From: Halorhabdus utahensis DSM 12940
Lineage (GTDB): Archaea > Halobacteriota > Halobacteria > Halobacteriales > Haloarculaceae
Reading direction: 5' to 3'
Assembly (NCBI RefSeq): GCF_000023945.1
Contig: NC_013158.1
Coordinates: forward strand, 1,674,001 to 1,738,000
DNA length: 64,000 bases
Shown here: positions 26,085 to 44,859 of the stretch, piece by piece
How the letters are laid out: each line of letters begins with the position of its first letter
Position numbering within the stretch: the first letter of the stretch is position 1
Made by a program: the position numbers and the translations under genes
Notes under the pieces: model-generated
What the model was told of the DNA's origin: nothing
Databases searched by the model: none
Seen by the model: the letters and a program-made list of their open reading frames with translations, nothing else

Positions 26085-26171
26085 CGTCGTCTCGTCCTGC
26101 GTAAATGAACAGAAGGTGCCGTGGGGAAGGTATAAGGGGCATTCTTGTCTTTACTGAGTAACTCTAGATCA

Positions 26172-29030
26172 ATGAGTGCCGAGCCCAGCCAATTACTGCC
26201 AGGCACCGTCATTCGTAACAGAAATCGACTCTGGCGGGTCGACGCAGTCGACGGGAAGAAAATCACTGCGACCGCGCTCGACGGGCCGACGACGACTCAT
26301 CGTTTCTACGCACCAATCGAGAACATTACGGAGGGGAGTCTGCCGGAACCGGACGCGGAGAACATGGGCAACCCACAGTTTCAGGACCTCCTGATTCAGG
26401 CAAACCGGTTGTCGATGCTCCACGGAACGGCGCCGCTCATGAGCCTCCAACGGTCGCGCGTGATCCCCACTGAGTACCAACTAACTCCAGTGGTCATGGG
26501 TCTCGATATGCCCGCTGTCCGATTACTCCTCGCTGATGACGTCGGGCTCGGGAAAACTATAGAGGCAGGGCTAATCACGAGCGAACTTCTGGCCAGAAAT
26601 AGGGCGGAGCGTATTCTGATCGTTACACCCGCCAACTTGCGTGATCAGTGGCGAGAGGCGTTCGAACACTTCTTCCACATCGACGCTCAGATCACTGATC
26701 GGCGAAATCGAAGGGCAATGGAGAAAGAGGTGCCGCCGGGAACCAGCGTGTGGGAATACTACTCCAAACATATCGTCTCGATTGACTACGCGAAGCAGGC
26801 GCACATTCATAACCAAATACGAAGCCAAGATTGGGATATGGTCATTATCGATGAAGCCCACCAGGCCGCTCGGCCGCACACTGCGTCGGCTGGGCAAGCT
26901 CCTTCGAAGCTGCGATGGGAGTTTGCGAAAGCGATTACTGAGGACGCCACGCACGCGCTTCTTCTCACTGCGACGCCGCATAACGGATACACGGATAGTT
27001 TCGCCAGCCTGCTTCGGATGGTCAATTCCGATATCGTTGCTGGTGACGCCCATAATCCATCCATCAACCAAGAGCTCGCTAAACGACACGTCGTACAACG
27101 TCGTCGGAAAGACGTCGAAGAATGGTTCGGTGACGACAATGAGAACCCGTTCCCAGAGCGTGACCAGGCAACAGTAGACGTAACGCCGACTGAATACGAG
27201 AAAACAGCATATGATGCAGTCAGAGACTATGGCGACACCCTCGTCGAGGCTGCAAAAGAGGCTGAGAACAGGAACGTAGCCCAGTGGACTGTCGTCCATT
27301 TCCTCAAGCGTGCGCTTTCCAGTCCTGAGGCCCTACGACGTTCGCTCGAGAACAGGCAGGACAAACTCGATGAACGCCTGGAGGAACTCGACGACGACGG
27401 TGTCAGTGAGGGTGAGAACGCCGGCGTTTCGGAAGAACTAGCGAAGGCCAATGCCCTGGACAGTGACCCAGGGGAAGACTATTCGGAAGCGGAACTCGGG
27501 GAACGCGTCGAGCGAGTCGTCTCTGGAGATCGGGCCGCGATCGAAATGGAGCTCGACGCACTCGAGGAGACGTTGGCGGCCGCAGACAAGGTCACACCAA
27601 CAAGGGACAGCAAACTCCAGAAACTGCTCGATCAAACGCTGCCTGCCAGGTTCAACAGCGGTGGGACGATCATCTTCACCAAATACATCGATACGCTGGA
27701 ATACCTCGAAGAGGGGATCGAGGAGTTCCTAGAGGAGAACCATCCGGATGTCGAACTCTACACCCTGCATGGCAAGCTGAACACGGCCGAACGGGACGAG
27801 CGATTTGAGCAGTTTGCGGACGCCGACCGAGGCGTCCTGGTCTCAACAGACGTGATCAGCGAGGGGATGAACCTCCAGTATGCCGCGAACCAGGTAATCC
27901 ACTACGAACTTCCGTGGAACCCCAATCGGCTCGAGCAGCGGAACGGACGGGTCGACCGGTATGGCCAGAAACGAGACAAGGTCTTCATCCGGACGATGGT
28001 CGTCGACGATCCGATGGATCGGACTGTTCTCACCAAACTCATCAAAAAGGCCCAGGAGATTCGGTCTCAGTATGGCTTTTCACCGCCGTATCTCGGCGAT
28101 GACGAAGGAATCATGCAACTCCTCGATGCCGATGATCTCCAGACGGTGATGCCCCAACAGACGCTTGGCGATTTCAGTGACGGAAAATCCACTGATGAGC
28201 AAGAGAGTGCTTTCGATCAAGAGGTCCTCGAACGAATCGAGGACGAGTCATTCTACGACCACAGCGAAGTAGATCTCAAGGAGGTCCAAGAGCGCCAGAA
28301 GGAAACCCAAGAGCTCCTCGGCGGCCCGGACGCTCTGGAGAACTTCGTCAAGAGTGGGCTCGATCTGTTCGGTTGTGTCTTTGAACCGAAGGTCGACGGG
28401 ACCTACGAAATCCGCGTCACTTCAGATGAGCTCCGAGGCCAGGATATCCAGGAGGCATACGAGCGGGTGACATTCAACCCCAAACGCGCCGCCGAAGACG
28501 CGGACATCGAGATGCTGGACATTGCGCACCCGCTCGTCCAGCGGTTGATCGAGTCTGTCAAGGAGGTCGCCTTGACGAGCGATGATCGGTATGGTCGGAC
28601 GGCGATGCGTGGTACCGAGGTCGTCGACGAGACCGTCGCGCTGTATACCTGGAAGGTACGGTACTTCGCTCACACCGGTGACAATCCAACGGTCATGGAG
28701 GAACTGCTACAAACCGCGCTTCCACTCTATGGTGACGGCGCCTTGTCTGCGGACGAGCTCAATCGACTGCGGGAGGCGGAGGCAACGGCAGCGAATCGAA
28801 CTGAACAGGAGTGGAAGCGCGACCTCGAGAACGCCATCGATCACGAGGACAAAGAGCACGTGATAACGCGTCGGGCAGATGATAGACGCGAACAGATAGA
28901 GGAGGAACGCAGTCGGATGCGAGAGAAACTGGAGGACGCCGGATACGGCAAATCGATGGGTGGCATCGATAACCTCTCCGTCGCGAGCAAAGATCTGCTG
29001 ACTGTCGGCCTATACTACCCATACCAATGA
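26172..29030 (+). CDS. SNF2-family helicase, DISARM DrmD-like
   Basis: 952 residues from the ATG at 26172. It has a SNF2/superfamily 2 core: ADDVGLGKTIEAG (Walker A near 120-130), VIIDEAHQAAR near 225, LLLTATPHNGY near 265, and QRNGRVDRYGQKR (motif VI) near 590. A small beta domain precedes the core, and the C terminus (about 650-950) is a charged helical region. This size and order match DrmD of class 1 DISARM and related helicases of phage-defence loci. The stop overlaps the methyltransferase start in ATGA, so translation is coupled. An ATP-driven DNA translocation role is standard for the family. Confidence 0.8.
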   Translation: MSAEPSQLLPGTVIRNRNRLWRVDAVDGKKITATALDGPTTTHRFYAPIENITEGSLPEPDAENMGNPQFQDLLIQANRLSMLHGTAPLMSLQRSRVIPTEYQLTPVVMGLDMPAVRLLLADDVGLGKTIEAGLITSELLARNRAERILIVTPANLRDQWREAFEHFFHIDAQITDRRNRRAMEKEVPPGTSVWEYYSKHIVSIDYAKQAHIHNQIRSQDWDMVIIDEAHQAARPHTASAGQAPSKLRWEFAKAITEDATHALLLTATPHNGYTDSFASLLRMVNSDIVAGDAHNPSINQELAKRHVVQRRRKDVEEWFGDDNENPFPERDQATVDVTPTEYEKTAYDAVRDYGDTLVEAAKEAENRNVAQWTVVHFLKRALSSPEALRRSLENRQDKLDERLEELDDDGVSEGENAGVSEELAKANALDSDPGEDYSEAELGERVERVVSGDRAAIEMELDALEETLAAADKVTPTRDSKLQKLLDQTLPARFNSGGTIIFTKYIDTLEYLEEGIEEFLEENHPDVELYTLHGKLNTAERDERFEQFADADRGVLVSTDVISEGMNLQYAANQVIHYELPWNPNRLEQRNGRVDRYGQKRDKVFIRTMVVDDPMDRTVLTKLIKKAQEIRSQYGFSPPYLGDDEGIMQLLDADDLQTVMPQQTLGDFSDGKSTDEQESAFDQEVLERIEDESFYDHSEVDLKEVQERQKETQELLGGPDALENFVKSGLDLFGCVFEPKVDGTYEIRVTSDELRGQDIQEAYERVTFNPKRAAEDADIEMLDIAHPLVQRLIESVKEVALTSDDRYGRTAMRGTEVVDETVALYTWKVRYFAHTGDNPTVMEELLQTALPLYGDGALSADELNRLREAEATAANRTEQEWKRDLENAIDHEDKEHVITRRADDRREQIEEERSRMREKLEDAGYGKSMGGIDNLSVASKDLLTVGLYYPYQ

Positions 29031-32000
29031 GTTCGGATACGTCGGATTCGATTCAGCGTCGCCTGGAAGAGACCACGTTCATCGAGCCCAACGGTGGGCT
29101 CCTCACCGAGCAGTTGATCCAGAAACTTCGTAACGAGAAGTGCTCGGAGGATGCTGTTCAGCCCAAGACGTTCCAGTATCCCGGCGATCCACCATCGACG
29201 ACGTCTGCACTCGAGGGTCACATTTCGGAGGCCTGGGACGACCTCGAAGAGCGCTGGGACGAGGTCACGCGAGATAACGAGCTGTATGGGATGGACGTTT
29301 CCGATGCACGGCGTCGATGGATTCTGAAACTGTTCGAGGAGCTCGGCTTCGACCCGGAGTACCAGCAGGCAAATCTCTCAGCGGGTGAACTCGAAGCGAA
29401 TCTCTCCCACTTTGGGTGGCCTCGGAGGGATTCCGTGACTGCAAATTCCGAAACTCCCGACACCATTCCGCCTGTCCTGCATACGATCAAACCCGACAAG
29501 GATCGCCCGCTCGATGATGGAGATCACCAAGGGGCTGTCGGTCGGCAGCAGAGTCCCCACGACGAGCTTCAGCGATATCTCAACGCGACTGAGGATGTCC
29601 AATGGAGTATCGTCACGGATGGCCTGAAGCTACGCGTGCTGCGTGATTACTATCACACCTACACCCGAGGGTACGTCGAGTTTGACCTCGAGAACATCTT
29701 CACCAATCGGAACTACGACGACTTCCGAGCTCTCTATCGGATCTGTCACGCCTCAAGATTCATTCCAAGAGGAAGCGGGAACGAAGCAGAAACTCCCATC
29801 GAATCGCTGTATCAGGTTGCGCTCGCTACTGGCGTCAAAGTCGGCGAGGATTTGCAGTCGAACGTCGTGGAGGCTCTGGAAACGCTTGGGAACGGTTTTC
29901 TGAATCAGGAAATTCGCGAGGCCCTCGAGGAAGGTGGTCAGGAGGCGGCGCAAGCGTATTATCAGGACCTCCTGCGAATCGTCTACCGGCTTCTGTTCCT
30001 CTTGTTTGCGGAGCAACGGGGAATGATGGCGGATCGGGGAGATCTATATACGAAGGAATACAGCATTAGTGCGCTTCGTGAGCGGGCAGAGCGGAAACAG
30101 TCCCAAGATCACCAAACTGACCTTTGGGAAGGGTTGAAAGTCACCTTCCACTTGGTTGGTCAAGGGGTTACAGAAGAAGACCTGAACGTGTCTGGGTATA
30201 ATGGGGGACTCTTCGATGACGAGAAACTGGAATTCGTACAGGACGCGACGTGCGATAACGATGCAATCCTCAGCGCGATTCACAACCTCACCCACGTAGA
30301 GCAACAGGGCTACCAGCAACGCATTTCGTATGCGGATTTGGGTGTTGACGAGATCGGTGCGGTATACGAAAGTCTGCTGGAATTCACACCGCAACTAGCT
30401 GAAACCGCTCTGGAGCTTGATGATCGCTCGATTTCTCGGGGTCAATTCTATCTCGACGATCGAGGGATGGAGCGAAAGGAGACGGGGAGTTACTATACCA
30501 AACCAGAGCTGGTCGATGAGCTGATTGAAAGTGCTCTGAAGCCGGTCGTCAATGACCGGCTGGAAGACGCTGATACAAAGGAAGAGAAAGAAGAGGCGTT
30601 GCTGGATATCGATGTCTGCGATCCGGCTGTAGGGAGCGGCGCGTTCCTCATTGCCGCCAATAATTTCCTCGGGAAGCGCTTGGCAGAGATTCGGAGCGAC
30701 TCTGCATATCCCGATGAAGAAACTGTCCGACAGGCACGGAGATCGGTCGTGCAGCACTGTCTATATGGAGTGGATCTGAACCCGATGGCAGTTGAGCTTG
30801 CTAAGGTCAGTCTATGGATCAACTCTGCTGTTGAGGATCAACCGTTGAGCTTCTTAGACCACCGAATCAAACAGGGAAATTCTCTCCTCGGAACCACTCC
30901 TGAACTGATCGCCGAGGGGCTCCCGGTCGATGCTTACGAAACTTCTGGAGGTCGTGAGTGGCACGAAGGGAACGAAGTTCGCAAAATGGTTCGGAGTGAA
31001 AATCGGGACCTGTCTAAAGATTCTCAGCTTCAAACGGGTTTGAATTGGAGCTGGGACGATCACGACGAACACGTTGAACTAGCCAACGAAATCGAGGGAA
31101 TAGACGAAGAAGACATCACGGACATTGAAGAGAAAGCGGAATTGTTTGACGAGCTGGAGTCGTCGGAGAGCCTTCGACGAGATCGATTAGCCCATGACGT
31201 CTGGACTGCGGCATTTTATTGGCCCTTGGATGGGTCTGCCGACGAGTATCCTTCCCCCAGGAGTATTGAACGGGTTCGTCGGAATCCGCCGGAGAATCTC
31301 GAGAGGTCGTTTGACGAGCTGGATGGCTTCGAGTCGATGTGCAAGCGGGCTGTGGAAATAGCTGAGCGCCAATCGTTTTTCCATTGGAAATTGGAATTCC
31401 CTGCTGTCTATTCGTCAAATGGTGGATTCGACTGTATAATAGGGAATCCGCCCTGGGAAAAAATGGACTTCGAGGAACAGGAATTCTTCGCTGTCCGCAA
31501 ACCCGAAATTGCCAATGCACCGACTTCGGCGAAACGGAGTGAGATGATTGAGAATCTTCAGGATACAGATCCTGAATTATATGAAGAATATCAGCAAGCT
31601 GCCGAAGCGGCAGAGGATACGATGAACTTCATGCGGGAAAGTGGTCGGTATCCACTCACTGGGCGCGGTATTATGAATACTTACGCTCTATTTGCTGAAC
31701 TGGCTCTAAGTAACATACAACCCGATAGTCTCACGGGAATGGTAGTACCCACGGGCATCGCTACTGATGCGAACACTCAATATTTCTTCAGAGAAATTGT
31801 TGAAGAACGACGACTGAAGTCCCTCTTTGATTTCGAAAACAAAAAGGGTCTCTTTCCAGGTGTTGACAGCAGGTACAAATTCTCTTTATTAACACTATCT
31901 GGCTCGGATCGAAAGCAATCGTCTTTTGAACTGGCATTTTATCTAATAGAACCTGATCAGCTTCAGGATTCAGAGAGGAGGTTTAAGTTGAGTCGGGAAG

Positions 32001-33058
32001 ACATAGAACTCATCAATCCCAATACGAAAAACTGCCCCACATTCGAAAGTAAGGCTGATGCGGAACTCACTTTAGAACTCTATAACTCTGTCGGCGTCTT
32101 TAAGAACACTGCTGAGGAACGTAACCCCTGGTCTATAGAGATTAGCCGAATGTTCAATACGTCTGATGATTCTAACCTCTTCAAAACGGAAACCGAGCTG
32201 GAGCAGAACAGTTGGAATCTTACTGGAAATAAGTTCGAAAAGGGCTCAGACCTATATATTCCGCTGTATGAGGCAAAACTAGTCAATCAGTTTAATCACC
32301 GGTATTCTACTTTTGAGGGGGTTCCTCAGGCAGAAGCGGATAAGGGGAATGCAGTCCGGCTGGGTGCAGAAGAACTTGATAAACCAAATCGATTGGCACT
32401 ACCCCGGTATTGGCTCTCAGAATCTGAATATCAGGACAAGAATGGGGATGACTGGCACCTAGCAGTTCGAGACATTACGAACGCAACGAATGAACGCACA
32501 GTGATCGCCTCGATTATCCCTGGCGTTGCGACCGGCGAAACTTTGAAACAAATATCTGGACAATCTGCGGAGGAGAGTCTACTGTTGCTAGCGTGTCTGA
32601 ATTCATTCACGCTTGATTTTGCGGCTCGACAGAAGGTCGGAGGAACTCACCTGAGTCACTTCATCCTACGACAGCTCCCAATCCCCTCACCAAACAGGTT
32701 TGAGCGCGTGAAACTAGATGGAGAGCCTATTCGAGATGCTATCCTAGAACGGTCAATTCGGTTGATGTACACTGCTCATGATCTGGATCCATTTGCGGAA
32801 GAAGTAGGGGAGGGCAGAGGGCCCTTTACCTTCACAGGCGACACGCAACCGAGGAAAGAGCTCAGGATGGAGCTAGAAGCCCTCATTTGTCACGTCTATG
32901 ATTTAAGCAGTGACGACTTTGAACAACTGTTTGACTCGTTTGAGCAGATTCGAGACCGTGAGATGGAGGAGCACGGGCGGTACCAGACCAGAGAGACAAT
33001 CAAACAGAAATATGAGGAATTCGCACCGCGGATTTCCATGAACCAAGACGATTCATAA
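29027..33058 (+). CDS. Large adenine-specific DNA methyltransferase, DrmMI/PglX-like
   Basis: 1,343 residues. The Eco57I-type methylase core has motif I DPAVGSGAFLIAAN at 532 and the catalytic NPPWEK at 807; the NPPW motif marks N6-adenine methylation. The N-terminal 400 residues are a helical domain with QRGMMADRGDLYTKE. The C-terminal 350 residues should be the target-recognition part. GC content falls noticeably from about 31,400 on, in the NPPW and target-recognition half. This protein type appears as DrmMI in DISARM and PglX in BREX; since no BREX genes are present, the DISARM-like reading is preferred. It overlaps the helicase gene and lies 16 bases before the next gene. It likely marks self DNA. 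Confidence 0.85.
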   Translation: MSSDTSDSIQRRLEETTFIEPNGGLLTEQLIQKLRNEKCSEDAVQPKTFQYPGDPPSTTSALEGHISEAWDDLEERWDEVTRDNELYGMDVSDARRRWILKLFEELGFDPEYQQANLSAGELEANLSHFGWPRRDSVTANSETPDTIPPVLHTIKPDKDRPLDDGDHQGAVGRQQSPHDELQRYLNATEDVQWSIVTDGLKLRVLRDYYHTYTRGYVEFDLENIFTNRNYDDFRALYRICHASRFIPRGSGNEAETPIESLYQVALATGVKVGEDLQSNVVEALETLGNGFLNQEIREALEEGGQEAAQAYYQDLLRIVYRLLFLLFAEQRGMMADRGDLYTKEYSISALRERAERKQSQDHQTDLWEGLKVTFHLVGQGVTEEDLNVSGYNGGLFDDEKLEFVQDATCDNDAILSAIHNLTHVEQQGYQQRISYADLGVDEIGAVYESLLEFTPQLAETALELDDRSISRGQFYLDDRGMERKETGSYYTKPELVDELIESALKPVVNDRLEDADTKEEKEEALLDIDVCDPAVGSGAFLIAANNFLGKRLAEIRSDSAYPDEETVRQARRSVVQHCLYGVDLNPMAVELAKVSLWINSAVEDQPLSFLDHRIKQGNSLLGTTPELIAEGLPVDAYETSGGREWHEGNEVRKMVRSENRDLSKDSQLQTGLNWSWDDHDEHVELANEIEGIDEEDITDIEEKAELFDELESSESLRRDRLAHDVWTAAFYWPLDGSADEYPSPRSIERVRRNPPENLERSFDELDGFESMCKRAVEIAERQSFFHWKLEFPAVYSSNGGFDCIIGNPPWEKMDFEEQEFFAVRKPEIANAPTSAKRSEMIENLQDTDPELYEEYQQAAEAAEDTMNFMRESGRYPLTGRGIMNTYALFAELALSNIQPDSLTGMVVPTGIATDANTQYFFREIVEERRLKSLFDFENKKGLFPGVDSRYKFSLLTLSGSDRKQSSFELAFYLIEPDQLQDSERRFKLSREDIELINPNTKNCPTFESKADAELTLELYNSVGVFKNTAEERNPWSIEISRMFNTSDDSNLFKTETELEQNSWNLTGNKFEKGSDLYIPLYEAKLVNQFNHRYSTFEGVPQAEADKGNAVRLGAEELDKPNRLALPRYWLSESEYQDKNGDDWHLAVRDITNATNERTVIASIIPGVATGETLKQISGQSAEESLLLLACLNSFTLDFAARQKVGGTHLSHFILRQLPIPSPNRFERVKLDGEPIRDAILERSIRLMYTAHDLDPFAEEVGEGRGPFTFTGDTQPRKELRMELEALICHVYDLSSDDFEQLFDSFEQIRDREMEEHGRYQTRETIKQKYEEFAPRISMNQDDS

Positions 33059-33074
33059 TGGAAGGGCAAACAAA

Positions 33075-34121
33075 ATGATTGGGCTGTATTTGATTCCTGT
33101 TGGCGATGATTGGATGGACGAGTTCCGAAGGACCGTTGAAAACGGTCTTGATATCGATGAGTCAGCACCCTCTGCTCTCCAGGATTATGAGCGAGTGAGA
33201 ATATGGGGAACGGAATCGAGTCAGGCTACGCAAGGCGGGGGAGGCATTAAACGAACCGCGTTTCGAAACATGGAGTCTGATGACATTCTTCTCTTCTACT
33301 CCGAGGGCGAATTCTTTGCATCTGCCCGGGTAGAGCAGAAATTTGAGAATCCCGATATCGGAGAGTGGGCTTGGAACTCACCGGAAAGCGATTGGACCTA
33401 CACGCTCCAGGATTTCGACTCGATCAGTGTTCCCAAAGAAGAGGTTTGGGATCTCCTTGGCTATAGCCAAAACTATCGACTCCAAGGACTTACTCAGGTC
33501 TCTGAAGACGCGATTGATACGCTCCTTACAAAGTATAATTCTGTCGAGGAAGCGTATCAAGACTTGATCGATGGGTCCCAAACCGATCGTGGTGACGAAG
33601 AAGTTATTGAGGAAGGCACCTCTAGCAGCCGTGACCATCTCGAAATCCAATGGAAACTAATCCAGCTCGGGCGTGATCACGGGTATGAGGTCTATGTCGC
33701 CAAGAACGACCGGAATAGAGAATTCGAGGGAGAGGTTCTCGGGAATGATTGTGTCAATTCGCTCTCCCTCACTGGCTTTAGCGAAGCGGCGCAGAATATC
33801 ATCGAGTATGTAGATGTGATATGGCTCGAGGACAACCATATCGTATCGATGTTCGAGGTGGAGAGCACGACGAGTATCTATAGCGGCATCTTAAGAATGA
33901 CTGACTTCGTCGCAAAAGTACCCAATCTCGCTGTCGATATGTATATCGTCGCTTCACAAGAGGACGAAGATTTGGTTCGGAAGCAAATTCAACGACCAAC
34001 TTTCCAACAGGTGTTAACGCCCGCAGACTACTCGGACGTACGGTTTGTCTCGTTTGAAAAGGTCCGGGAGAAGTACGATCTTGTTCAAAATGCTGGTCCG
34101 CTACAAAGAGTATTCCCCTAA
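33075..34121 (+). CDS. EVE/PUA-like domain fused to a nuclease-like domain
   Basis: 348 residues. The N-terminal 160 residues look like an EVE/PUA-type reader: DDILLFYSEGEFFASARVEQ with strand-loop-strand order, then YSQNYRLQGLTQVSEDAI, the usual closing segment. After an acidic linker (about 170-190), the C-terminal half contains VDVIWLEDNHIVSMFEVEST near 245-264, which has the D...ExE arrangement of a PD-(D/E)XK-type core; the lysine is replaced, so activity is uncertain. The fusion resembles stand-alone type IV restriction proteins, which cut modified DNA. It sits 16 bases after the methyltransferase, in the same operon. Confidence 0.55.
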   Translation: MIGLYLIPVGDDWMDEFRRTVENGLDIDESAPSALQDYERVRIWGTESSQATQGGGGIKRTAFRNMESDDILLFYSEGEFFASARVEQKFENPDIGEWAWNSPESDWTYTLQDFDSISVPKEEVWDLLGYSQNYRLQGLTQVSEDAIDTLLTKYNSVEEAYQDLIDGSQTDRGDEEVIEEGTSSSRDHLEIQWKLIQLGRDHGYEVYVAKNDRNREFEGEVLGNDCVNSLSLTGFSEAAQNIIEYVDVIWLEDNHIVSMFEVESTTSIYSGILRMTDFVAKVPNLAVDMYIVASQEDEDLVRKQIQRPTFQQVLTPADYSDVRFVSFEKVREKYDLVQNAGPLQRVFP

Positions 34122-34198
34122 ACTTACTACGTAAACCTGGGACATCATCCTTACAATGCCAGGATTCCGCGATTGGAATGTAGTGTGAATCAGGAGCA

Positions 34199-34205
34199 GT
34201 TTTAT
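34199..34205 (+). promoter_or_regulatory. Candidate TATA element for the OLD gene
   Basis: GTTTTATT lies about 33 bases before the ATG, in the 116-bp gap after the EVE-like gene. It suggests internal transcription start in addition to readthrough from upstream. Confidence 0.3.
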
Positions 34206-34237
34206 TGTTCCACCCTGACTTTCTTTGGACATCATCA

Positions 34238-35992
34238 ATGCAGGTCACCGAAATTGACATCGAGAATTTTCGTAGTATTCCCGAAACATCTATTGGGCTT
34301 GGAGACTTCAATTTATTGATTGGTAAAAATAACGCAGGGAAATCAAATATCGTTAAGGCAATCTATCGGTATCGGGATTTAGTGGCTGGGAATGTGGATA
34401 TATCTGATTTTTATGAATCAGCTGTAACTCGGGGAAAGCAACCTGAGCCAATCAAGTTTAGCATATCATATCAGATTGAAGAGGGGACTAGAGAGAATCT
34501 AATTGAGAGTTTGTCGGAAAACCATGAGGTGTCTGCATCGGTCTATGATACTCTCATGGACAGTGAGTCATTTCAAAAGTACAATCATGAAATATCGATT
34601 CGCGAAACTGGCGTCTCACACAATACAATTAACACTTGTCTAAATGGTTCTAAAGTGGAATTGGGGACGCTTGATGTGTCTGACGAGTCTGTTGAATTGC
34701 TCGACTTAGATGAATTGATGGACAAGAACCGATCTCGACACCAACTATCTGACAAACCATCAAACCAAATAAATGATGTTATTCCATCTTCGATTCAGGG
34801 AGGTATTCTTGGAGAATTTTCTGAGTGGAAGATAATCGCACCATTCCGTAGAACCGAGGAGAGGGGAGTATTTGGGGCGGATCCTGATTTAGATCCCACT
34901 GGCGAAAATCTCACAACCTTTCTGCAATCGATTCGAGAAGACGGTACTGGTAGATATAGTAAGATATGCAAACAATATGAAGATATAATGGAGGGCGTAG
35001 ATGAGGTTCGTATTGAAACACGCGAGGACGGGGATGGTAATGCAGTGCCAACAATTCGGATTGATGAACAGCAATCTGATGATATCGGATTAGATGAGTT
35101 ATCCTCTGGTGCCAAAGAGATTTTAATATTGGTTACACAAATAATCGTATCTCGATCCGATAACAGTCCCCTCTATATTGAAGAACCGGAACTTCATCTC
35201 CATCCCGCTGCTGAACGAGAAATATATTCTATGATCACTCGAGTGGCACAAGATTACAATACACAAGTCATCGTCACCACCCATTCTGATGTCTTTGTAG
35301 ATGAAGTAAACGTAGAGGATATTTTCTCTGTCAAGCGCGGTGATTACACTTATATCGATACCGTCAACCAAGGTGAGTTAGGCGAAATTCTTACTGACAT
35401 TGGTTATCCAACAAGCGAGTTTCTTCAAGCAGATCGTATCGTCTTTGTGGAAGGCCGAAGTGATCGTGTTGTACTTAGCAATTGGGCTAAGAAGCTCGAT
35501 TTGTCGTTTTCGATAAATGGGGTTGAACCTGTCAAGTTTGGAGGAGATGAAATATTTGAAGACGGGAATCCATATACTAACGAGATTCCAGATCTCTTGG
35601 GTCAAATGGGAATACCTTATAAGTACGTATTCGATTCGGATGGGGAAGATCCAGACAAGAAGGAATCAGAAATCGCGAGTGAACTGGGCCTCTCGGCCGC
35701 AAAAATTTGTGTGATTGACGGCTACTGTATCGAGTCATACTTGGCGAAACCGCCGAGAGCCTTGGCGGAGACGTTGGTTGTAGAACAGGAAGAGATAGAA
35801 GAAGACCTACCGGATGACCCCTATGGAGTAAATATGAAATCGAAGTTTGATTCCTTATTTAAAAAACACTTAGGGACTGGGTATAGTGAGGAAAAGCATG
35901 GGGCCGCAGTTGCTAAGAAGATGCAGCCAAACGAAATCTCTGAAGAGATGAAAGCGATGATCGAAGATATCGTAACAATGGAGCGAAGATAA
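34238..35992 (+). CDS. OLD-family ATPase with TOPRIM nuclease
   Basis: 584 residues from the ATG at 34238. The ABC-type ATPase domain has Walker A GKNNAGKSN near 29, the signature LSSGAKEILILV, and Walker B SPLYIEEPELHLHP followed by QVIVTTHSDVF. The C-terminal TOPRIM domain has VEGRSD near 405 and DSDGEDPD near 466, the metal-binding acidic motifs. OLD proteins are DNA nucleases used against phage, alone (OLD class 1) or with a helicase (Gabija). The gene is AT-rich (about 40% GC) unlike its neighbours. A TTTTATT element about 35 bases before the ATG may give it a promoter of its own. Confidence 0.85.
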   Translation: MQVTEIDIENFRSIPETSIGLGDFNLLIGKNNAGKSNIVKAIYRYRDLVAGNVDISDFYESAVTRGKQPEPIKFSISYQIEEGTRENLIESLSENHEVSASVYDTLMDSESFQKYNHEISIRETGVSHNTINTCLNGSKVELGTLDVSDESVELLDLDELMDKNRSRHQLSDKPSNQINDVIPSSIQGGILGEFSEWKIIAPFRRTEERGVFGADPDLDPTGENLTTFLQSIREDGTGRYSKICKQYEDIMEGVDEVRIETREDGDGNAVPTIRIDEQQSDDIGLDELSSGAKEILILVTQIIVSRSDNSPLYIEEPELHLHPAAEREIYSMITRVAQDYNTQVIVTTHSDVFVDEVNVEDIFSVKRGDYTYIDTVNQGELGEILTDIGYPTSEFLQADRIVFVEGRSDRVVLSNWAKKLDLSFSINGVEPVKFGGDEIFEDGNPYTNEIPDLLGQMGIPYKYVFDSDGEDPDKKESEIASELGLSAAKICVIDGYCIESYLAKPPRALAETLVVEQEEIEEDLPDDPYGVNMKSKFDSLFKKHLGTGYSEEKHGAAVAKKMQPNEISEEMKAMIEDIVTMERR

Positions 35993-36032
35993 TGAATGTG
36001 GTTTGCGTGAGTTTACATGGGGTGATTAAATA

Positions 36033-38318
36033 ATGAGTCAAAAGCATGCCGATAGTCTTCTAAAGGCAGGGACGGAGTCGGAAGTTCATCAAATCCTCAA
36101 CGGCAAATATTTTGAAGAAAGTAATTGGGTGCCCCTCGGTGATCAGGAGAATAACTACGGGATTGTCGAAAACCAGGCAGCATCTCCGTTAGCAGCTCTC
36201 ACGGAGATCATTGTGAATTCTATTGACGCAATATTACTTAAAAATTATAATCATAGATACGGAGATGAAGATCTTGAGGATACAAAGTTTGAAACTATGC
36301 AGCAGGCGGCAGAAAAGCTCATTGAGCCGTCCAAGGAGGACCTGGTCTTAGCGGCCGAAGGAGAAAAAGGAGGGCCACTGAGTCTGGTTGTTGAAGACAC
36401 AGGAGAAGGAAAACTGAATGGAAGATTTGAAGAAACCTTTCTTGGGCTTCTTTCGCCGGGAAAGCTGAAACAGGAATATGAGTTTTTGCAAGGTCAATAT
36501 GGAATGGGTAGTTCTGGTGTTTTACCATTTTGTGGGCAAAAGGGATATAAATTGATTCTATCAGCTTCTCATGAGGATCCGGGTCAATGGGCCTGGAGCA
36601 TCATTCGAAAGAATGAACAAAAAACCCGATATGAATATTTCACAGTTGACGGAGATATTCCGACTTTTGGAGGCAAAGTGAATGGCAGGAAGTATGGGTC
36701 AGTGGTTAAACTTTATAATTATCAAGTCAATCAGCAAAGCCAAATATCTTCAGACAGGAATATCCGTCGCTTTTTGGAAAGGTATCTACTCAAATCGCCA
36801 ATTTCGATTAATTTGGAGGAACGTCGAGACTATTCCTCCTTCCAAATGGAAGATGAAACAGATGGGATGCTTCCCCATATTGAAGAGAAATATTCAGAAC
36901 TTCTCAAAAGCAATCATCGAATACAATATTCTTTTGATAATTCTGCAATTGGAACTAGAGAAATTCAAGTAATTCTTTTTAAGCAAGATAAGAATTTGGA
37001 TGAAAAACAGCAGGAGAAAAAACGACTCTTTATAGGCGGCCGAAAGCATCGTCGTCAAGCAATATTCTTCGTTGTAAATGGGCAAACCCACGGTGATCAA
37101 GGAAAGAGTTTCTTGAAAAACAGATGTGGACGGCCACGAACAGCCGACGACACTCTCGTATTCGTTGACTTCTCAGACATTTCTGGGACTGATCTTGTTA
37201 ATTTATTCAAGCCAGCCCGAGATAGATTGACAGATAAGGAAATTGCCCGTGATCTAATATCAGGCCTACAAGAAGCGATCGAAGAGGATGATGTCTTGTC
37301 GAATGAAGAGAGACTCCGCCGGGAAGAGGTTATTGAAGAACAAGACGAAAGTCTTGAGGAATACTTCAATACTGTAGTAGATGATAATCCCATCTTACAC
37401 TCATATTTCACAGATGAGGGGAGTGCATCTTTGGATGATGAAGAAAGTTCTGAGGAAACGAATGTCTCTGTAAATCTTGATGATCTGGAATTTGATCCAC
37501 CACATATCCCGGACAAACTATCTCCAATTGAAATATTCCGATCACATGGTTCTTATGACCTTTGGAATTCAGAGGCAGGTATCTTTGAGTTAGAAGTGCC
37601 CATTAATGGAACCCGTCGTCTGAGATTTTATTTAAATGCGCCAGATAATTACTTTTACCGAGACCAATCAAGGGGATCGCTTTCAATAACTCCATCTGAA
37701 GCAGTTAAGTCCTGGCAACTTAGCACCGGTATCCTTTCGCTCACCGTCGAACCACTAAAGGGATCGAGGGAAGGTACTGAAACACCGATAACTGTCGAAG
37801 TTACACGTCCGACTAAACAACCCTTGACCTCGACGGTTCGGATACAGTGTGTTGAACCGAAAACTGAAGAGAAGGAGCCTAATGACGAGGAAATCGAATT
37901 CCGGTTACCCAGTGTCACGGAAGTAGAGGAGGATAGTTGGGAAGATCACAATTTCGATGAAAATGAAGTAGTAAGGATTGATGATTACAGTGATGAGCAA
38001 GGAGATATTGCTGTTTTTGTAAATATGGACTGTGTACAATTGCAAAGCTTCATTGATCGCCACTCTTTGGAGAGTTCTGAAAAGGCAGAAATAAGAATGG
38101 CATTTAAACAAGGTGTTGCACTGTACAGTATATCTCAGTACATTGAATTTTTAGAGACGCTCCGGGAACAAGAAGAAATAGATGAAATAGATGATGATAC
38201 GGCCCCATCGGAGATATTCACTGAAGAAAACGACATAACGCAAATTGTATCCCGGTCAATGAGGGGAATCGCTTGGACATTGCCTGATCAGTATTATAAA
38301 GCCAAAGAGATTGGATAG
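36033..38318 (+). CDS. GHKL-type ATPase protein (MutL/Hsp90-like)
   Basis: 761 residues. The N-terminal 250 residues form a GHKL ATP-binding fold: N-box LTEIIVNSIDA near 56-66, G1 box VVEDTGEG near 119-126, and the GQYGMGSSGV lid glycine box near 155. The middle holds a transducer-like domain (FIGGRKHRRQAIFFVVNGQT). The C-terminal 300 residues include an Ig-like beta domain and an acidic helical tail. GHKL proteins of this size are known in several defence clusters as ATP-driven conformational switches. The gene is AT-rich (about 42% GC), follows the OLD gene by 40 bases, and has a good GGGGTGATT ribosome-binding site. Its substrate is unknown. Confidence 0.8.
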   Translation: MSQKHADSLLKAGTESEVHQILNGKYFEESNWVPLGDQENNYGIVENQAASPLAALTEIIVNSIDAILLKNYNHRYGDEDLEDTKFETMQQAAEKLIEPSKEDLVLAAEGEKGGPLSLVVEDTGEGKLNGRFEETFLGLLSPGKLKQEYEFLQGQYGMGSSGVLPFCGQKGYKLILSASHEDPGQWAWSIIRKNEQKTRYEYFTVDGDIPTFGGKVNGRKYGSVVKLYNYQVNQQSQISSDRNIRRFLERYLLKSPISINLEERRDYSSFQMEDETDGMLPHIEEKYSELLKSNHRIQYSFDNSAIGTREIQVILFKQDKNLDEKQQEKKRLFIGGRKHRRQAIFFVVNGQTHGDQGKSFLKNRCGRPRTADDTLVFVDFSDISGTDLVNLFKPARDRLTDKEIARDLISGLQEAIEEDDVLSNEERLRREEVIEEQDESLEEYFNTVVDDNPILHSYFTDEGSASLDDEESSEETNVSVNLDDLEFDPPHIPDKLSPIEIFRSHGSYDLWNSEAGIFELEVPINGTRRLRFYLNAPDNYFYRDQSRGSLSITPSEAVKSWQLSTGILSLTVEPLKGSREGTETPITVEVTRPTKQPLTSTVRIQCVEPKTEEKEPNDEEIEFRLPSVTEVEEDSWEDHNFDENEVVRIDDYSDEQGDIAVFVNMDCVQLQSFIDRHSLESSEKAEIRMAFKQGVALYSISQYIEFLETLREQEEIDEIDDDTAPSEIFTEENDITQIVSRSMRGIAWTLPDQYYKAKEIG

Positions 38319-38342
38319 CTTATAACTGTTCCTATGGTGAAA

Positions 38343-38357
38343 ACTAGCAGCGCTAGT
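38343..38357. repeat. Short hairpin after the GHKL gene
   Basis: ACTAGC and GCTAGT pair around AGC. It lies 25 bases after the GHKL stop. It may be part of a transcription end before the separate helicase promoter; no T-tract follows directly. Confidence 0.3.
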
Positions 38358-38381
38358 CCCATTTGAATTCTACTCAATCAG

Positions 38382-38391
38382 TATTTTTAAT
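38382..38391 (+). promoter_or_regulatory. TATA element for the DUF1998 helicase
   Basis: TATTTTTAAT is centred about 25 bases before the ATG at 38412, the right place for an archaeal promoter giving a leaderless mRNA. It implies the big helicase can be transcribed apart from the rest of the operon. Confidence 0.5.
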
Positions 38392-38411
38392 CAGTGGTCT
38401 CATGAAAGAGT

Positions 38412-41400
38412 ATGGCCACCCGTCTCAATCCTTTCGACGCACTCGACGAAGTCCAAACCTCGTATCGGGATTACGTCGAGACGTTCCAGAACGTCGACGA
38501 CGATACGATTGAAGCCTGGATCGACGAGCGGATCAACACTGGCAAGGTTCTCTGGAAGGAGCCGTTCGTCCAGCTGAACGAGCGATTCCAGACGGGTCGA
38601 TCCCTACACGAATTCGTCGATGAAGGATCGCTCCACTCCGGCGTCCTCGATGTCTTCGATGACGAGAGCGGTGAACCGATCGAACCGTACAAGCACCAGT
38701 CAGAAGCGATCGAATCGATTCGCGAGGGGAACACGATCGTCTCAACTGGCACGGGGTCGGGGAAGAGCTTCGCGTTCGGCATCCCGATCGTCAGCCACTG
38801 CCTCGAGGCTATCGACCGAGGCGAGGAGGGGATCAAGGCCGTCATCGTCTATCCGATGAACGCCCTGGCGAACTCGCAGTACGAGGAGTTCGCCGAACGA
38901 CTCGATGGGTCTGGTCTCAAGCTCGGTCTCTACACGGGGGACACACCCACGGATCCCGACAGCGAGGCGGAGTTCCTCAATCAATTCGGTCGTGACGAGC
39001 CGTACGACTGTGAGGTCGTCTCCCGGGAGGAACTCCGCGAGGATCCGCCGGACATCCTGATGACCAACTACGTGATGCTGGACTACATTCTGACTCGTCA
39101 TCAGGATAAGGAACTCTTCCCGCCTGAGCACGACGGTGCCCTCGAGTTCCTTGTCCTCGACGAGATCCACACCTACACCGGCCATCAGGGGGCCGACGTC
39201 GCGGCCCTCATCCGGCGACTGCGTGAGCACACTGGCGCGGGCGAAGGGCTGACCTGCATCGGGACCTCAGCGACCGTCCAGAGCGAGGAGGGCCTGGACG
39301 CCGACGAGGAGATTGCCGAGTTCTCCGAACGGATCTTCGGATCGCCCGTCGATCCGGACCGAGTCATTGGCGAGTCTCACTATACTCTCGAGCTGACCGG
39401 GGATGCGAATCTCCCCGAACGCGTCGAAGTAACTCAGGCGGACATCCAGCGGTTCGATGGATCTGCGGATGAGGCGACCAAACTTGCAGAACGGATCACC
39501 GAGCGATCGCTCCGAAAGGAAGAAACGAAATCCGCCAAAGCCATTGGAGAGGTTCTCCTCGATCACCCCACCGTTGCCTTCCTCGACGAACAGCTTAGCA
39601 CCCAGAGTCAACAGATCCAACCGTCCGGGGAAGCCGCCGAACAAGCGGAAGAATCGCTCGTTGAGGAATACCGCGAGAACTTCCGGCCTGCTGCGACAGC
39701 TGATGAAGCTCGTCGAGAACTCCAAGCTGCCTTACTTGCGGGCACCGTCGGAACGACGGAGGTCCAAGGCGACCAACAACCGATCTTCGTGCCGAAACTC
39801 CACTCGTTCTTTAGCCAGGGCTCTGGGTTGGTCGCGTGTCTCACCGAGGAAACGCTCGAGGACGAAGAGCCCCATTTAAGCGACGCTGGAGACCTTCAGT
39901 GTCGTCATTGTGCTCGGGAATACGACCGGGATATCAAGGCCTTCCCGCTGTCCTTCTGCCGCGCCTGTGGCCAGGAATACTACACTGTAGTCCGTGACGA
40001 CCATGGCCACCTGGCGCCACGTGAGGTGAGCGATCTCAGTGTCGAAGACGACGAGACAGCAGGATACGTCATGCGAGGGGAGTGGGACCGGGAAGAGACA
40101 CCGCTCCCGGCCGATTGGTTCGATGACGACGATGTCCTCAGGGACACCTGGGTCGATGCAGTTCCTGAACCAGCTACCTACTGTCCCCAACATAATCGCC
40201 TGACTGACGGCCACCTCGAGAGCGGACAGCTCGATTGTGGTTGTTTCGCCACGCAAGGAATTCAGGTAATGTGGACGGAGGCGGAGTTCCTCTTCTGTGG
40301 CAACTGCGGGGTAAGTCACACGCGAATGGGTCGTGCGATGGAGCTCTCGAAGATGTTCAAGTTCGGGACAGTCGGTCGATCGACCGCGACTGACGTCCTC
40401 ATCGGCTCGACGATGCAGGAATTGCCCGACCCTCAACAGAAGACGATCGCCTTCAGCGACAATCGACAGGACACCGCATTGCAGGCTGCCCACCTCAATA
40501 ATCTCTATCAGCGGGTGAAGTTCCGCCGTGCGCTCTACGGTGCGTTGCAGGAAAACGGTCGTGTGAGCCTCGCTGATATCGGAAACCGTACCTTCGACGT
40601 CTTAGATAGCAATGATGCACTACCTGATGGCCTCCAAACTACCCGGTTCGGCGTTCCTGACGACGAGAAGGGGAGATATAGCCGATATCTGGAGTTCCAT
40701 ACGCTGCTCGAACTCAGGAAAAGCCAGCAACGTGGTCAGCAGAGCCTCGAAGACGTCGGTCTCATCGATGTTGAGTATGAGCACCTCGAGGATCTCGCGG
40801 AAATCGACGAAGCCTGGGAAGACGTGCCGGAATTAGCTGACGCCGACCCGGCTGTCAGACACGAATATTGTAAGGCATTCCTCGACTTGTTCCGGCGAAC
40901 TGCGGCGCTCAATCACAACATTTTCACCAACTTCGGTGATTTCCGGAGGGACGTCATCAACAATCTCGATGACGATGCGCAGTTTCACAAGCAGCAATTC
41001 TTCAGGTTCCCTGAAGGATTCAGTGACTCAGCAGACACAAGTGGCACTGAACAAATTCACCGGTTTACCCACTGGCGATCTCGCCACGTCAAGTGGACGA
41101 CTAGGGCACTAGATGTCGATTCGGATCGAGCTGTCGAGGTCATTAAAGGAGTTCGAGATCTCCTAAGCAATCCCGATGAGCTTCCCCTTCTGGTGGAAGC
41201 GCCCATCTATCGCGGGCGCAAAGCCTACATGCTCAACTCCGGGCTCGTTAAGTTGGTTCCGCACGATCCGAGTGATGTTTCGGTTTGTCCGAAGTGTAAG
41301 ACCGTCGTTACTCGAGATCGTCTCGAGATGTGCCTCAACAGTAGCTGTGGAAACGTAACGCCCGAGCAGACCGACCTCCGCGATTCGTACTTTCACGAGC

Positions 41401-43706
41401 TGTATACCCTCTCCTTCGACGAAGCGGTGGACATCTTCGCAGCCGAACACAGTGGCCAGATCGAAGGAGAGCTTCGGAAGGAATTAGAGACCCAGTTCCG
41501 CGAGGACGGGAACCTGAACACGATTGTATGCACTCCGACTATGGAGCTGGGGATCGATATCGGAGATCTTTCGAACGTCTTTATGCGTAACGTGCCGCCG
41601 AATCCCAGCAATTACGCCCAACGCTCGGGTCGAGCAGGTCGTCAGGACCAACCGTCGCTTGTGACCACATTCTGTGGAAGTGGCTTCGGTCGTGCTTCGC
41701 ATGATCAGTATTTCTACCAACGTCCGGAGCGGATCATCGCTGGTGAAATCTCACCACCGACGTTTCTCCTCAACAACCGAGATCTCCTGAAAGCACATAT
41801 CAACGCCCTCGTGCTCGAAGTCATCGACTTCAAGCTACAGGGAAAGATCAAACAGATCTTGGATATCAAAGCAACCGAAAACAGTTACGAGCTATATGGG
41901 AGTTATCGTGACGACTTGGAATCTGCGGTAGAATCGAACCGTGACGAAATCATCCAGGCCGTCAAACAAGCCTTCAGCAGAGAGCGTCAACACACGGAGT
42001 ACACTGACTGGTTCACCGACGAATTTATCGAGGAACGTGTCGATGAGTTCGTTGGCAATTTTGACGAAGCCTTCGATCCGTGGCGAATTGAATACAGTCG
42101 GCTGACCAGAGAACTTCGTCGGTTGAACAAGAAACTCGGTGCCGAAGGCGGGGAATACCTTGAACGGCAGGAGCGGGACGCGATCGAACGTCGCCTGGAA
42201 AACATGCGGGATGGAGGGAAGCGATTCTACTCCTACCAGTATCTTCGCTCACAGGGTTTCCTACCGAATTATGGCTTCCCTCGATCGAACTGCACACTTG
42301 GATTCACGACGCTCGAAGACGATATTCAGCGGGACGAGGCACAGGCGATCCGCGAATTCGCTCCCGGAAATCACGTGTACTACCGCGGGGAACGACATGG
42401 CGTCAAGTACGCCAGGCCGAAGACTCGCGATGCCGAACCGGTTACGCGCCATAAGATCGTTTGTCCTGCTTGTGAGACGATTCTGATGGGTGATGATGCA
42501 CAAGAGGCGGCTGGCTGCCCGGCCTGTGGAGAGACGTTCGACGGAGTTCACACGAACCCGAACGCAATGGAACTCCCGGACCAGCGGGCCCGCCCGGAGG
42601 AAAACATCACCAGTGATGACGAGGAGAGACAGAGGGAAGGCTATGACATCGAACAATACTATGAACGCCGGAATGCGACCGAGTACGAACTTGCGGGCGA
42701 TGGGGTTTCAGCCCATGTGACTTATGAATCGAATGCGCGGATAGTCACGGTCAATTCCGGAATCCGGGGCAGAGACGACGACGAGCTTCAGGGCTTTGCC
42801 CTGTGTACGGAGTGTAACCGATGGCTCACGAGTTATAATCAGATCGAAGGCCACGTTGACGACGGCTGCTATGCGAATGCAGACGAGGACGCAGTTCGCG
42901 AGGGTATCGAACTCTACACAGAGGGCGGACATGATACCGTGACCGTGACGACGCCCTTACCCGGCCAGGTGGATGAAAACCGGTCGGAATCCTTCTTCCA
43001 CACACTTAAAGAAGCTCTTTATCAGGGAATTCTCGTCGAATTCGATCTTGATGAACAAGAGCTTTCGACCTTCATTAAGCCAGCGCCAGGCGATCATGGC
43101 GACCTTACTATCGTAATTCACGAGACAAGTGAAGGCGGTGCTGGTGCGCTACACGATCTAACTGATCCAACGAAGAATCGCTTTGCTCGGGCAATTCGAG
43201 AGGCACTTGATGTACTTCACGCCAATGATCCCGATGGATGCGAGCGGGCCTGTTACGAGTGCTTGATGTCCTACTATAATCAGCGTGAACATCCACTGTT
43301 CGATAGAGAGTTAGTCATGCCATGGCTTCGAGGAGCACAGTCGTTGACCCTGAATCCGATTGATCGCACTTATGACGAGGAGAGATACCAGGATCTCAGG
43401 AGTACTTGTGAATCTAGCTTAGAACTCGATGTCCTCGAACGTGTCCGAGACGAAGGCTATCCCCTTCCTGATGAGGCACAAAAGACGATATATGACGGGG
43501 AAGAACCAGTAGTTGAAGCCGACTTTTTCTATGAGTCTGCAGGACGACCACAACCCATTGCAGTATTCGTCGATGGCCCGGACCATCAGAAAGAACACGT
43601 CCGAGCAGGCGACGAGGAAAAGCGCCAGAGGTTGCTACAGATGAATTATCGATATTTTAGCGTCTCATCACCAAGCGAAGTCCCCGATCTCTGGGAGCAG
43701 ATATAG
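38412..43706 (+). CDS. Giant DUF1998 DEAD/DEAH-box helicase with nuclease-like C terminus
   Basis: 1,764 residues. Helicase motifs are STGTGSGKSFA (Lys118), LVLDEIHTYTG (D250), CTPTMELGIDIGDL and QRSGRAGRQ near 1070. Two Cys-rich zinc-like inserts occur (CRHCAREY with CRACGQEYY, and CPKCKTVVT with CLNSSCGN), and later CPACETIL with CPACGETF. The DUF1998/MZB end has HETSEGGAGALHDL near 1570 and CERACYECLMSYYNQ near 1610. The last 65 residues resemble the Vsr/DUF559 nuclease fold (EADFFYES ... IAVFVDGPDHQKEH). Such proteins are the DruE/MrfA-like helicases; DISARM normally splits this function into DrmA and DrmB. It is the last gene of the run and has its own promoter. Confidence 0.85.
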   Translation: MATRLNPFDALDEVQTSYRDYVETFQNVDDDTIEAWIDERINTGKVLWKEPFVQLNERFQTGRSLHEFVDEGSLHSGVLDVFDDESGEPIEPYKHQSEAIESIREGNTIVSTGTGSGKSFAFGIPIVSHCLEAIDRGEEGIKAVIVYPMNALANSQYEEFAERLDGSGLKLGLYTGDTPTDPDSEAEFLNQFGRDEPYDCEVVSREELREDPPDILMTNYVMLDYILTRHQDKELFPPEHDGALEFLVLDEIHTYTGHQGADVAALIRRLREHTGAGEGLTCIGTSATVQSEEGLDADEEIAEFSERIFGSPVDPDRVIGESHYTLELTGDANLPERVEVTQADIQRFDGSADEATKLAERITERSLRKEETKSAKAIGEVLLDHPTVAFLDEQLSTQSQQIQPSGEAAEQAEESLVEEYRENFRPAATADEARRELQAALLAGTVGTTEVQGDQQPIFVPKLHSFFSQGSGLVACLTEETLEDEEPHLSDAGDLQCRHCAREYDRDIKAFPLSFCRACGQEYYTVVRDDHGHLAPREVSDLSVEDDETAGYVMRGEWDREETPLPADWFDDDDVLRDTWVDAVPEPATYCPQHNRLTDGHLESGQLDCGCFATQGIQVMWTEAEFLFCGNCGVSHTRMGRAMELSKMFKFGTVGRSTATDVLIGSTMQELPDPQQKTIAFSDNRQDTALQAAHLNNLYQRVKFRRALYGALQENGRVSLADIGNRTFDVLDSNDALPDGLQTTRFGVPDDEKGRYSRYLEFHTLLELRKSQQRGQQSLEDVGLIDVEYEHLEDLAEIDEAWEDVPELADADPAVRHEYCKAFLDLFRRTAALNHNIFTNFGDFRRDVINNLDDDAQFHKQQFFRFPEGFSDSADTSGTEQIHRFTHWRSRHVKWTTRALDVDSDRAVEVIKGVRDLLSNPDELPLLVEAPIYRGRKAYMLNSGLVKLVPHDPSDVSVCPKCKTVVTRDRLEMCLNSSCGNVTPEQTDLRDSYFHELYTLSFDEAVDIFAAEHSGQIEGELRKELETQFREDGNLNTIVCTPTMELGIDIGDLSNVFMRNVPPNPSNYAQRSGRAGRQDQPSLVTTFCGSGFGRASHDQYFYQRPERIIAGEISPPTFLLNNRDLLKAHINALVLEVIDFKLQGKIKQILDIKATENSYELYGSYRDDLESAVESNRDEIIQAVKQAFSRERQHTEYTDWFTDEFIEERVDEFVGNFDEAFDPWRIEYSRLTRELRRLNKKLGAEGGEYLERQERDAIERRLENMRDGGKRFYSYQYLRSQGFLPNYGFPRSNCTLGFTTLEDDIQRDEAQAIREFAPGNHVYYRGERHGVKYARPKTRDAEPVTRHKIVCPACETILMGDDAQEAAGCPACGETFDGVHTNPNAMELPDQRARPEENITSDDEERQREGYDIEQYYERRNATEYELAGDGVSAHVTYESNARIVTVNSGIRGRDDDELQGFALCTECNRWLTSYNQIEGHVDDGCYANADEDAVREGIELYTEGGHDTVTVTTPLPGQVDENRSESFFHTLKEALYQGILVEFDLDEQELSTFIKPAPGDHGDLTIVIHETSEGGAGALHDLTDPTKNRFARAIREALDVLHANDPDGCERACYECLMSYYNQREHPLFDRELVMPWLRGAQSLTLNPIDRTYDEERYQDLRSTCESSLELDVLERVRDEGYPLPDEAQKTIYDGEEPVVEADFFYESAGRPQPIAVFVDGPDHQKEHVRAGDEEKRQRLLQMNYRYFSVSSPSEVPDLWEQI

Positions 43707-43728
43707 CGGGCAATACCGCCCACACGGT

Positions 43729-44859
43729 CTAAATCCCGTCATGCCGTCCAACTTCTCGTGGGAACCCATCCAGAATTTCTCGCCCCGTCAGTCTGTCAGT
43801 CGTAGTTCCGGTTCGTACGAAGAACGTCCCGTCAACGTCAACCGGAACTTCAATTGCTCGGTCCACGTTGATGATAAGGATATCTGTTCCATCGACGCGA
43901 GCTTTCTCAATGTCTCGGATGACGTTTGAGAGATCGTTGCTCAGAACATTCGCTACCGTTTCTTCCACCTGATCGATAGAATCAAGACCAACTGGGGTTC
44001 CGGAATCATCAACACCGATCAGAATGGTCCCACCTTCATTATTTGCGAGCGCGGCTACTTCTTGAGCGACTTTATCACGGTGATTCGGCAGCTGTTCTTT
44101 GAATTCGAGAACTTCGCTTTCTTGCCGTGAAAGGACTGTTTTCACGCTGTCTGGGGAGACTCGGAATTCCCCCTGGAATCGTTGCTCAAGCGCTGCGGAA
44201 AGTAGATCCGAAAATGAGGAGTAGTGTAACTGGTCTTCCTCCGAGAGGAGACCAGTTTCCAATTCAGCCTCTTGCGGTGCTTCCTCATCGTACCGGATCG
44301 GGATGATTGCGAGCGAATCTAAACTCTGTGCAATTGACCCATCAGCAAACTCGAACTCCCGATATCCATTGATTATCTCTTCAGGGTCCCGAGACAGATC
44401 CCCAACGTTCAATACAATAATACTCCCAGTCGCCGCAAGTGGAGCGGTATCATAGACTCCAAGATAGAAGGAGTGAATCTCTTTACCACGATTTATCCAA
44501 TTTTTGCCCACCGAAGAAACGAGCGATTCAACGTTCAGGGCAAACCAGACATCATCAACGCTTCCCGCATTTAGTTCAGCTGCGCCCGATATCTGTCGTT
44601 GTGGAGGCTCTGTTGGAGTACCAATCACGTAATCAACATCGTGATAGAAACTGTGTCCGGACGGGGAATAATTTCGTTCAGCGACTAACTCACCTTCCCG
44701 AGCTGCTTCAAGCAGGATGTCACTCCTTGATAATATGTCCCTTCCCACTGCCTCGCAGATCACGTCGGTTTGCTTGCGTCCTTGGCCGGAGTAATCTCCT
44801 TGCTGGAATAACTTCAGGACCTGTCCCGGGAGTTCACAAAAGTGGTCTGAATCAGTCAT
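43729..44859 (-). CDS. AlbA_2-domain protein with REase-like N terminus
   Basis: 376 residues. The C-terminal domain (about 245-350) is a clear AlbA_2/Schlafen-type domain: SEVLEFKEQLPNHRDKVAQE, NEGGTILIGVDDSG and FFVRTGTTTDRLT. The N-terminal 200 residues show YHDVDYVIG near 74, then WFALNVESLVSSVGKNWINR, then GSIIVLNVG. This resembles the core of restriction endonucleases, but the usual E-x-K is replaced by N-V-E, so it may be inactive. The start overlaps the stop of the methyltransferase gene by 8 nt. Together they look like a modification-plus-effector pair. The gene is convergent with the DUF1998 helicase, with 22 bases between the stops. Confidence 0.65.
   Translation of the reverse strand: MTDSDHFCELPGQVLKLFQQGDYSGQGRKQTDVICEAVGRDILSRSDILLEAAREGELVAERNYSPSGHSFYHDVDYVIGTPTEPPQRQISGAAELNAGSVDDVWFALNVESLVSSVGKNWINRGKEIHSFYLGVYDTAPLAATGSIIVLNVGDLSRDPEEIINGYREFEFADGSIAQSLDSLAIIPIRYDEEAPQEAELETGLLSEEDQLHYSSFSDLLSAALEQRFQGEFRVSPDSVKTVLSRQESEVLEFKEQLPNHRDKVAQEVAALANNEGGTILIGVDDSGTPVGLDSIDQVEETVANVLSNDLSNVIRDIEKARVDGTDILIINVDRAIEVPVDVDGTFFVRTGTTTDRLTGREILDGFPREVGRHDGI

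Follow-up and report, generated by a model that had tools for sequence, protein, structure and literature searches.

We analysed a 64,000-nt stretch of the Halorhabdus utahensis genome (3,116,795 bases), referred to here as the window, in which six open reading frames follow one another on the + strand at 26172–43706, with intact motifs according to the open reading frame list and profile searches. The first, armA-like gene (26172–29030, +) encodes a RapA/BrxHII-type SNF2 helicase of 952 amino acids with a Walker A motif (GLGKT) and DEAH; the length is counted from the ATG at 26172, residue 10 of the frame that the open reading frame tool starts at a TTG at 26145, as alignments to most relatives start there. 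The armB-like gene (29027–33058, +), encoding a PglX/DrmMI-type N6-adenine methyltransferase of 1343 amino acids with the motifs DPAVGSGAFL and NPPW, overlaps it by the ATGA at 29027–29030. Three genes that we call cargo follow: EVEnuc (33075–34121, +), with an EVE-like N-terminal and a restriction-endonuclease-like C-terminal domain; an OLD-family ATPase with TOPRIM (start approximate, ~34238, to 35992, +; Walker A GKNNAGKS, VEG motif); and a predicted paraMORC-like GHKL-S5 ATPase of 761 amino acids (36033–38318, +). The last, armC-like gene (38412–43706, +) encodes a YprA-family helicase of 1764 amino acids with a DUF1998/MZB module and a putative Vsr-like C-terminal domain. From armB through the cargo to armC the intergenic gaps are 16, about 115, 40 and 93 bp. 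A preliminary description of this DNA had listed six genes in this order on one strand, the first two overlapping by ATGA, and the reading frames agree with it on each point.

An McrB-like GTPase gene (23515–26046, −) lies divergent from armA, with mcrC (22248–23525, −; PF10117, 2.9e-59) next to it. Downstream, at 43729–46312 on the − strand, are genes for an SLFN/AlbA_2 protein and an Eco57I-type methyltransferase; relatives of both are also found 3′ of armC in two comparison loci (L093 and L051; comparison loci carry L numbers throughout). Elsewhere in the window, at 14887–17399 and 58649–60757, PD-(D/E)XK and HNH nuclease genes adjoin TFIIB-like genes.

The encoded proteins

The domain calls first made for genes 1, 2, 4 and 6 were upheld by Pfam and PADLOC profiles. 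Gene 1 has Helicase_C and SNF2 domains, and its best PADLOC match is DrmD (6.6e-119), followed by BrxHII (1.6e-96); against the NCBIfam DrmD model it reaches 432 bits, under the 610-bit cut-off. Gene 2 is an Eco57I/N6_Mtase protein whose best PADLOC match is DrmMI (3.2e-106), and gene 4 combines AAA_15 with an OLD-like TOPRIM, both the Walker A ATPase and the TOPRIM being present. Gene 6 is made up of DEAD, Helicase_C and MZB/DUF1998 (MZB 2.1e-9, Pfam) and carries eight CxxC motifs; PADLOC DruE models match it to 1e-123, versus 9e-13 for DrmA. The D, DG.xH and D..KR motifs of its C-terminal stretch are kept in 14 ArmC loci, and we assign this putative Vsr-like domain by motif rather than by profile match.

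Two further calls stood in part. The nuclease-like C-terminal half of EVEnuc matches type II restriction endonucleases, while the label EVE-like comes from reading the sequence, the protein having no Pfam match; the N-terminal half, for its part, finds matches in the N-terminal region of HNH endonucleases from haloarchaea. The residues D247...E261-V-E263 are kept in all seven aligned sequences. A structure model of EVEnuc was dropped (mean pLDDT 38.5). For gene 5 the HATPase profile match is sub-threshold, but motifs N, G1 and G2 have conserved residues, and its structure model (mean pLDDT 74) can be aligned to the ATPase modules of Hsp90, MutL, GyrB and MORC (MORC2, MORC3); searching PDB sequences with a GHKL profile returned nothing useful. 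Conserved motifs and modelled fold point to a paraMORC-type GHKL ATPase with an S5 domain.

A three-gene core and a variable interval

The core formed by genes 1, 2 and 6 (SNF2-MTase-YprA) is collinear in 15 other haloarchaeal loci (L047–L057, L060, L093, L098, L106) and on plasmids of Thermus and Allomeiothermus (Thermaceae) and of the cyanobacteria Chroococcidiopsis, Nostoc and Euhalothece. On D. radiodurans pMP1 the core order is C-A-B, with McrBC nearby. McrBC stands divergent beside the core in half of the 16 haloarchaeal loci (the window, L047–L051, L093 and L106). In a recent preprint (Bell et al. 2025, September; PMC12458937) the defining parts of ARMADA are a helicase of the BrxHII kind, a PglX-like methyltransferase and a YprA helicase with a C-terminal Vsr domain, and the A-B-C order is reported for ARMADA type I in many archaea and cyanobacteria. 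Zinc-binding modules and a BrxA-like insert after RecA1 also characterise the ARMADA type I helicase. Because gene families and gene order match this published description, we consider it likely that the core is an archaeal-order ARMADA type I (armA-armB-armC), divergent from McrBC, in which both the C-terminal half of armB and a cargo slot separating armB from armC vary; the assignment is made from the description and the architecture rather than from aligned ARMADA I reference sequences.

The armB–armC interval differs strongly between loci. It is empty or a short gap in 7 of the 15 other haloarchaeal loci (L048, L050, L051, L052, L056, L057, L098) and holds a TBP-like gene in five (L049, L053–L055, L060), a PLD-type nuclease gene in L093, a reversed MTase-like gene in L047 and a second armB in L106, where tandem methyltransferases of 1339 and 1328 amino acids lie between armA and armC (L106:7489–15491). 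Annotated bacterial slots contain small hypothetical genes (Thermus), none (Allomeiothermus), DUF2513, Rpn and PIN/AbrB genes (Chroococcidiopsis), AAA and radical-SAM genes (Nostoc) or small genes including UPF0175 and DUF3368 (Euhalothece). EVEnuc-OLD-GHKL occupies the slot in the window alone among the 16 haloarchaeal ARMADA loci compared, and this cargo set is a single case. With the slots of relatives empty or otherwise filled, the earlier suggestion that three extra proteins had been inserted is borne out. Taken jointly with the ARMADA type I assignment and the reading of armB given below, the interval is likely to be a variable cargo slot, here with three inserted defence-type genes. In the literature we found no direct match for a cargo slot of this sort within comparable operons; the preprint passages do not describe one, and neither OLD nor GHKL genes came up when its main text was searched by word (PMC12458937).

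The nearest locus, L093 in genome G366, shares ~84% DNA identity with the window at positions 22286–30885 and 38412–45187, and not between. The block at 30886–38411 (+), comprising the armB 3′ half and the three cargo genes, is missing from it and is replaced by a different armB 3′ half and the PLD-type nuclease gene. ArmA and ArmC are 92 and 94% identical between the two loci, respectively. ArmB is 91% identical over residues 1–620 and 20–65% per 100-residue bin beyond (bins in order: 90, 85, 91, 89, 97, 95, 65, 42, 44, 57, 37, 26, 26 and 20%). The nearest relative of the window's C-terminal half is that of L047 (86%); for that of L093 the nearest is at 41%. The armB genes of L052–L055 behave similarly, with N-terminal halves 92–95% and C-terminal halves 46–62% identical. 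G+C falls across 30886–38411; GC3 is 0.61–0.66 in armA, the armB N-terminal half and armC, 0.49 in the armB C-terminal half and 0.36–0.53 in the cargo. Thus ArmB residues 621–1343, which include the NPPW at residue 807, behave as an exchangeable half, probably the specificity half of the methyltransferase. L047 has a window-like C-terminal half but a different slot gene; C-half and slot can therefore change separately.

Origin and standing of the cargo genes

We searched for the six-gene set elsewhere. It was not seen again in 294 Halobacteria genomes with four of the proteins as queries, nor, via the helicase, in the whole family (148 genomes) or a wider draw from the class (394 genomes). None of 16 GHKL loci from a wider contig scan had an EVEnuc, OLD or ArmC relative (blastp 1e-5). 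The genome searches scored few candidates per genome and the contig scan used two peptide patterns; the blastp threshold of 1e-5 used for the neighbourhood comparison may have passed over diverged relatives. Among the 294 Halobacteria, ArmC matches occur in 15 genomes and GHKL matches in 16, both only in the window's genome. Leaving that genome out (14 ArmC and 15 GHKL genomes), chance predicts an overlap of 0.7 and none was seen, so ArmC and GHKL show neither association nor avoidance. The proposal of a hybrid or undescribed six-gene anti-phage system is thus not sustained, since the core is of the ARMADA type I kind and close relatives of all six genes come together only in the window; nor is the six-gene order conserved across the haloarchaea searched, the nearest ARMADA locus lacking all three extra genes.

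The cargo proteins have relatives that adjoin further defence systems linked to modification (DISARM, Ssp, BREX and type I RM). EVEnuc has full-length relatives in six other genomes of the 294, and a seventh (G291) has two separate pieces; they adjoin a BrxC gene (L065), type I RM (L063) and IIG-like methyltransferases (L061, L064). OLD relatives at 30–39% identity occur in nine of the 294 genomes. None of the genomes with EVEnuc or OLD relatives is among the ArmC genomes of this set, and viral contigs had no EVEnuc or GHKL relatives. In six haloarchaeal genomes (L039–L044) GHKL relatives, of 905–941 amino acids where intact, stand directly upstream of drmA-drmB-drmC, drmC or drmB of L041 and L042 lying past the end of the retrieved stretch; the GHKL family therefore recurs next to a YprA-type helicase system. 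Others stand beside N4/N6 methyltransferases (L032, L033, L036), and a distant one (about 25% identity) lies in L092 with SspC and a PAPS-reductase-domain gene. Gene order in L086–L088 and L091 is similar to that in L092, the locus covered by the SspC profile check. Members of this GHKL ATPase family are thus repeatedly found as neighbours of defence systems tied to modification, namely DISARM, Ssp, MTase pairs and ARMADA.

The three cargo genes might be an independent defence system that landed in an ARMADA operon. Their low G+C, and promoter-like AT stretches that look plausible by eye before gene 4 and before armC, would fit this; however, the trio as a set did not turn up at any other locus examined, and relatives of each are alone or with different partners, so the cargo is unlike one mobile three-gene system, and we regard this origin as unlikely. 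It is improbable, too, that the trio acts as a split topoisomerase or MutL-like clamp-nuclease in physical partnership with the ARMADA core, the armB–armC interval being a general docking slot for new effectors. Slightly less probable still is the fuller version, in which all six proteins are one machine whose ARMADA helicases feed a clamp-nuclease, topoisomerase- or MutL-like, made up of the GHKL, OLD/TOPRIM and EVE-like nuclease proteins. Close spacing on one strand would also suit such an integrated six-gene operon, and the GHKL relatives upstream of drmA-drmB-drmC speak for it; against it, no second locus with the set was found in the 294 Halobacteria or the 16 GHKL loci, the closest ARMADA locus (94% ArmC) does without the trio, the composition breaks across the cargo, and the window GHKL is closer to the stand-alone or MTase-linked branch (37–43% identity) than to the DISARM-linked one (31–34%). 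A class 1 DISARM with drmA and drmB fused and drmC lost, suggested by the best PADLOC matches of genes 1 and 2 (DrmD, DrmMI), has virtually no chance of being correct, given the DruE over DrmA scores of gene 6, the sub-cut-off NCBIfam DrmD score of gene 1, the lack of DrmB and DrmC among the matches listed, and genuine haloarchaeal DISARM loci, which look different.

We favour an ARMADA type I core with exchangeable parts. In this modular picture archaeal ARMADA I has a fixed helicase core, an exchangeable methyltransferase half and a gene-collecting slot; as the source organism is a cultured and sequenced type strain, its predictions can be tested.

Possible mode of action and relation to known systems

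ARMADA II, according to the preprint, needs all four of its genes and is non-abortive (Bell et al. 2025, PMC12458937); DruE of Druantia III is a helicase-nuclease acting on ssDNA-containing DNA. From homology to these tested systems we infer an anti-phage function for the locus. ArmB would put an adenine mark and/or recognise a sequence, and ArmA would remodel incoming DNA or translocate along it. ArmC, which joins a YprA-type helicase to a putative Vsr-like nuclease domain, might load on exposed ssDNA and degrade the invading DNA, the cell surviving. Judged by their families, the cargo proteins could be further DNA-directed effectors that broaden coverage: the EVE-like/nuclease protein may target DNA that is modified, OLD may be an ATP-gated TOPRIM nuclease, and the GHKL protein may clamp DNA in the manner of MORC or MutL.

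The likeness to class 1 DISARM noted at the outset is real, in that the SNF2 helicase and adenine methyltransferase are of related families and the DUF1998 module is shared. The window, however, lacks separate drmA, drmB and drmC, and its helicase is Druantia/ARMADA-like. DrmC had been reported missing, correctly: among the 25 PADLOC families listed per protein, the six genes gave no DrmB or DrmC match and only a weak DrmA match, on gene 6. DrmA/DrmB-like functions are fused in the last helicase, as proposed, but its derivation from DISARM does not hold, DruE models fitting far better than DrmA. On profile scores and the missing drmB and drmC, DISARM membership was rejected. Druantia shares the DruE-type helicase but is built with different partner proteins, DruH in the case of type III, in contrast to the SNF2 helicase and PglX-like methyltransferase here; no other Dru protein was among the best PADLOC matches of the other five genes (25 families listed per protein). 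BRIGADE was also rejected: it usually has two YprA helicases per system, and the window's genome has one other MZB protein, a 797-aa frame ~600 kb away.

Among single proteins, the OLD nucleases GajA and retron Eco8 OLD have the same ABC-type ATPase and TOPRIM; the window OLD is 30–39% identical to its nearest haloarchaeal relatives, and GajB, AriB or a retron partner was not seen among the operon genes. Restriction-modification operons can include MORC and paraMORC GHKL ATPases (Iyer et al. 2008, PMC2292703); there, as here, a GHKL+S5 protein stands beside methyltransferase, helicase and nuclease genes. The window GHKL is assigned to none of the five named paraMORC families and stays under the Pfam, PADLOC and NCBIfam cut-offs. 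From ARMADA type II the locus differs at the end of armC, where a GajB-like helicase (ArmD) was not found in the window and SLFN/AlbA_2 and methyltransferase genes stand on the other strand instead. Leaving aside the cargo trio in the armB–armC interval and the swapped armB C-terminal half, the likeness is closest to ARMADA type I, which has a BrxHII-like helicase, a PglX-like methyltransferase, a YprA helicase ending in a Vsr-like domain, the A-B-C order and adjacent McrBC.
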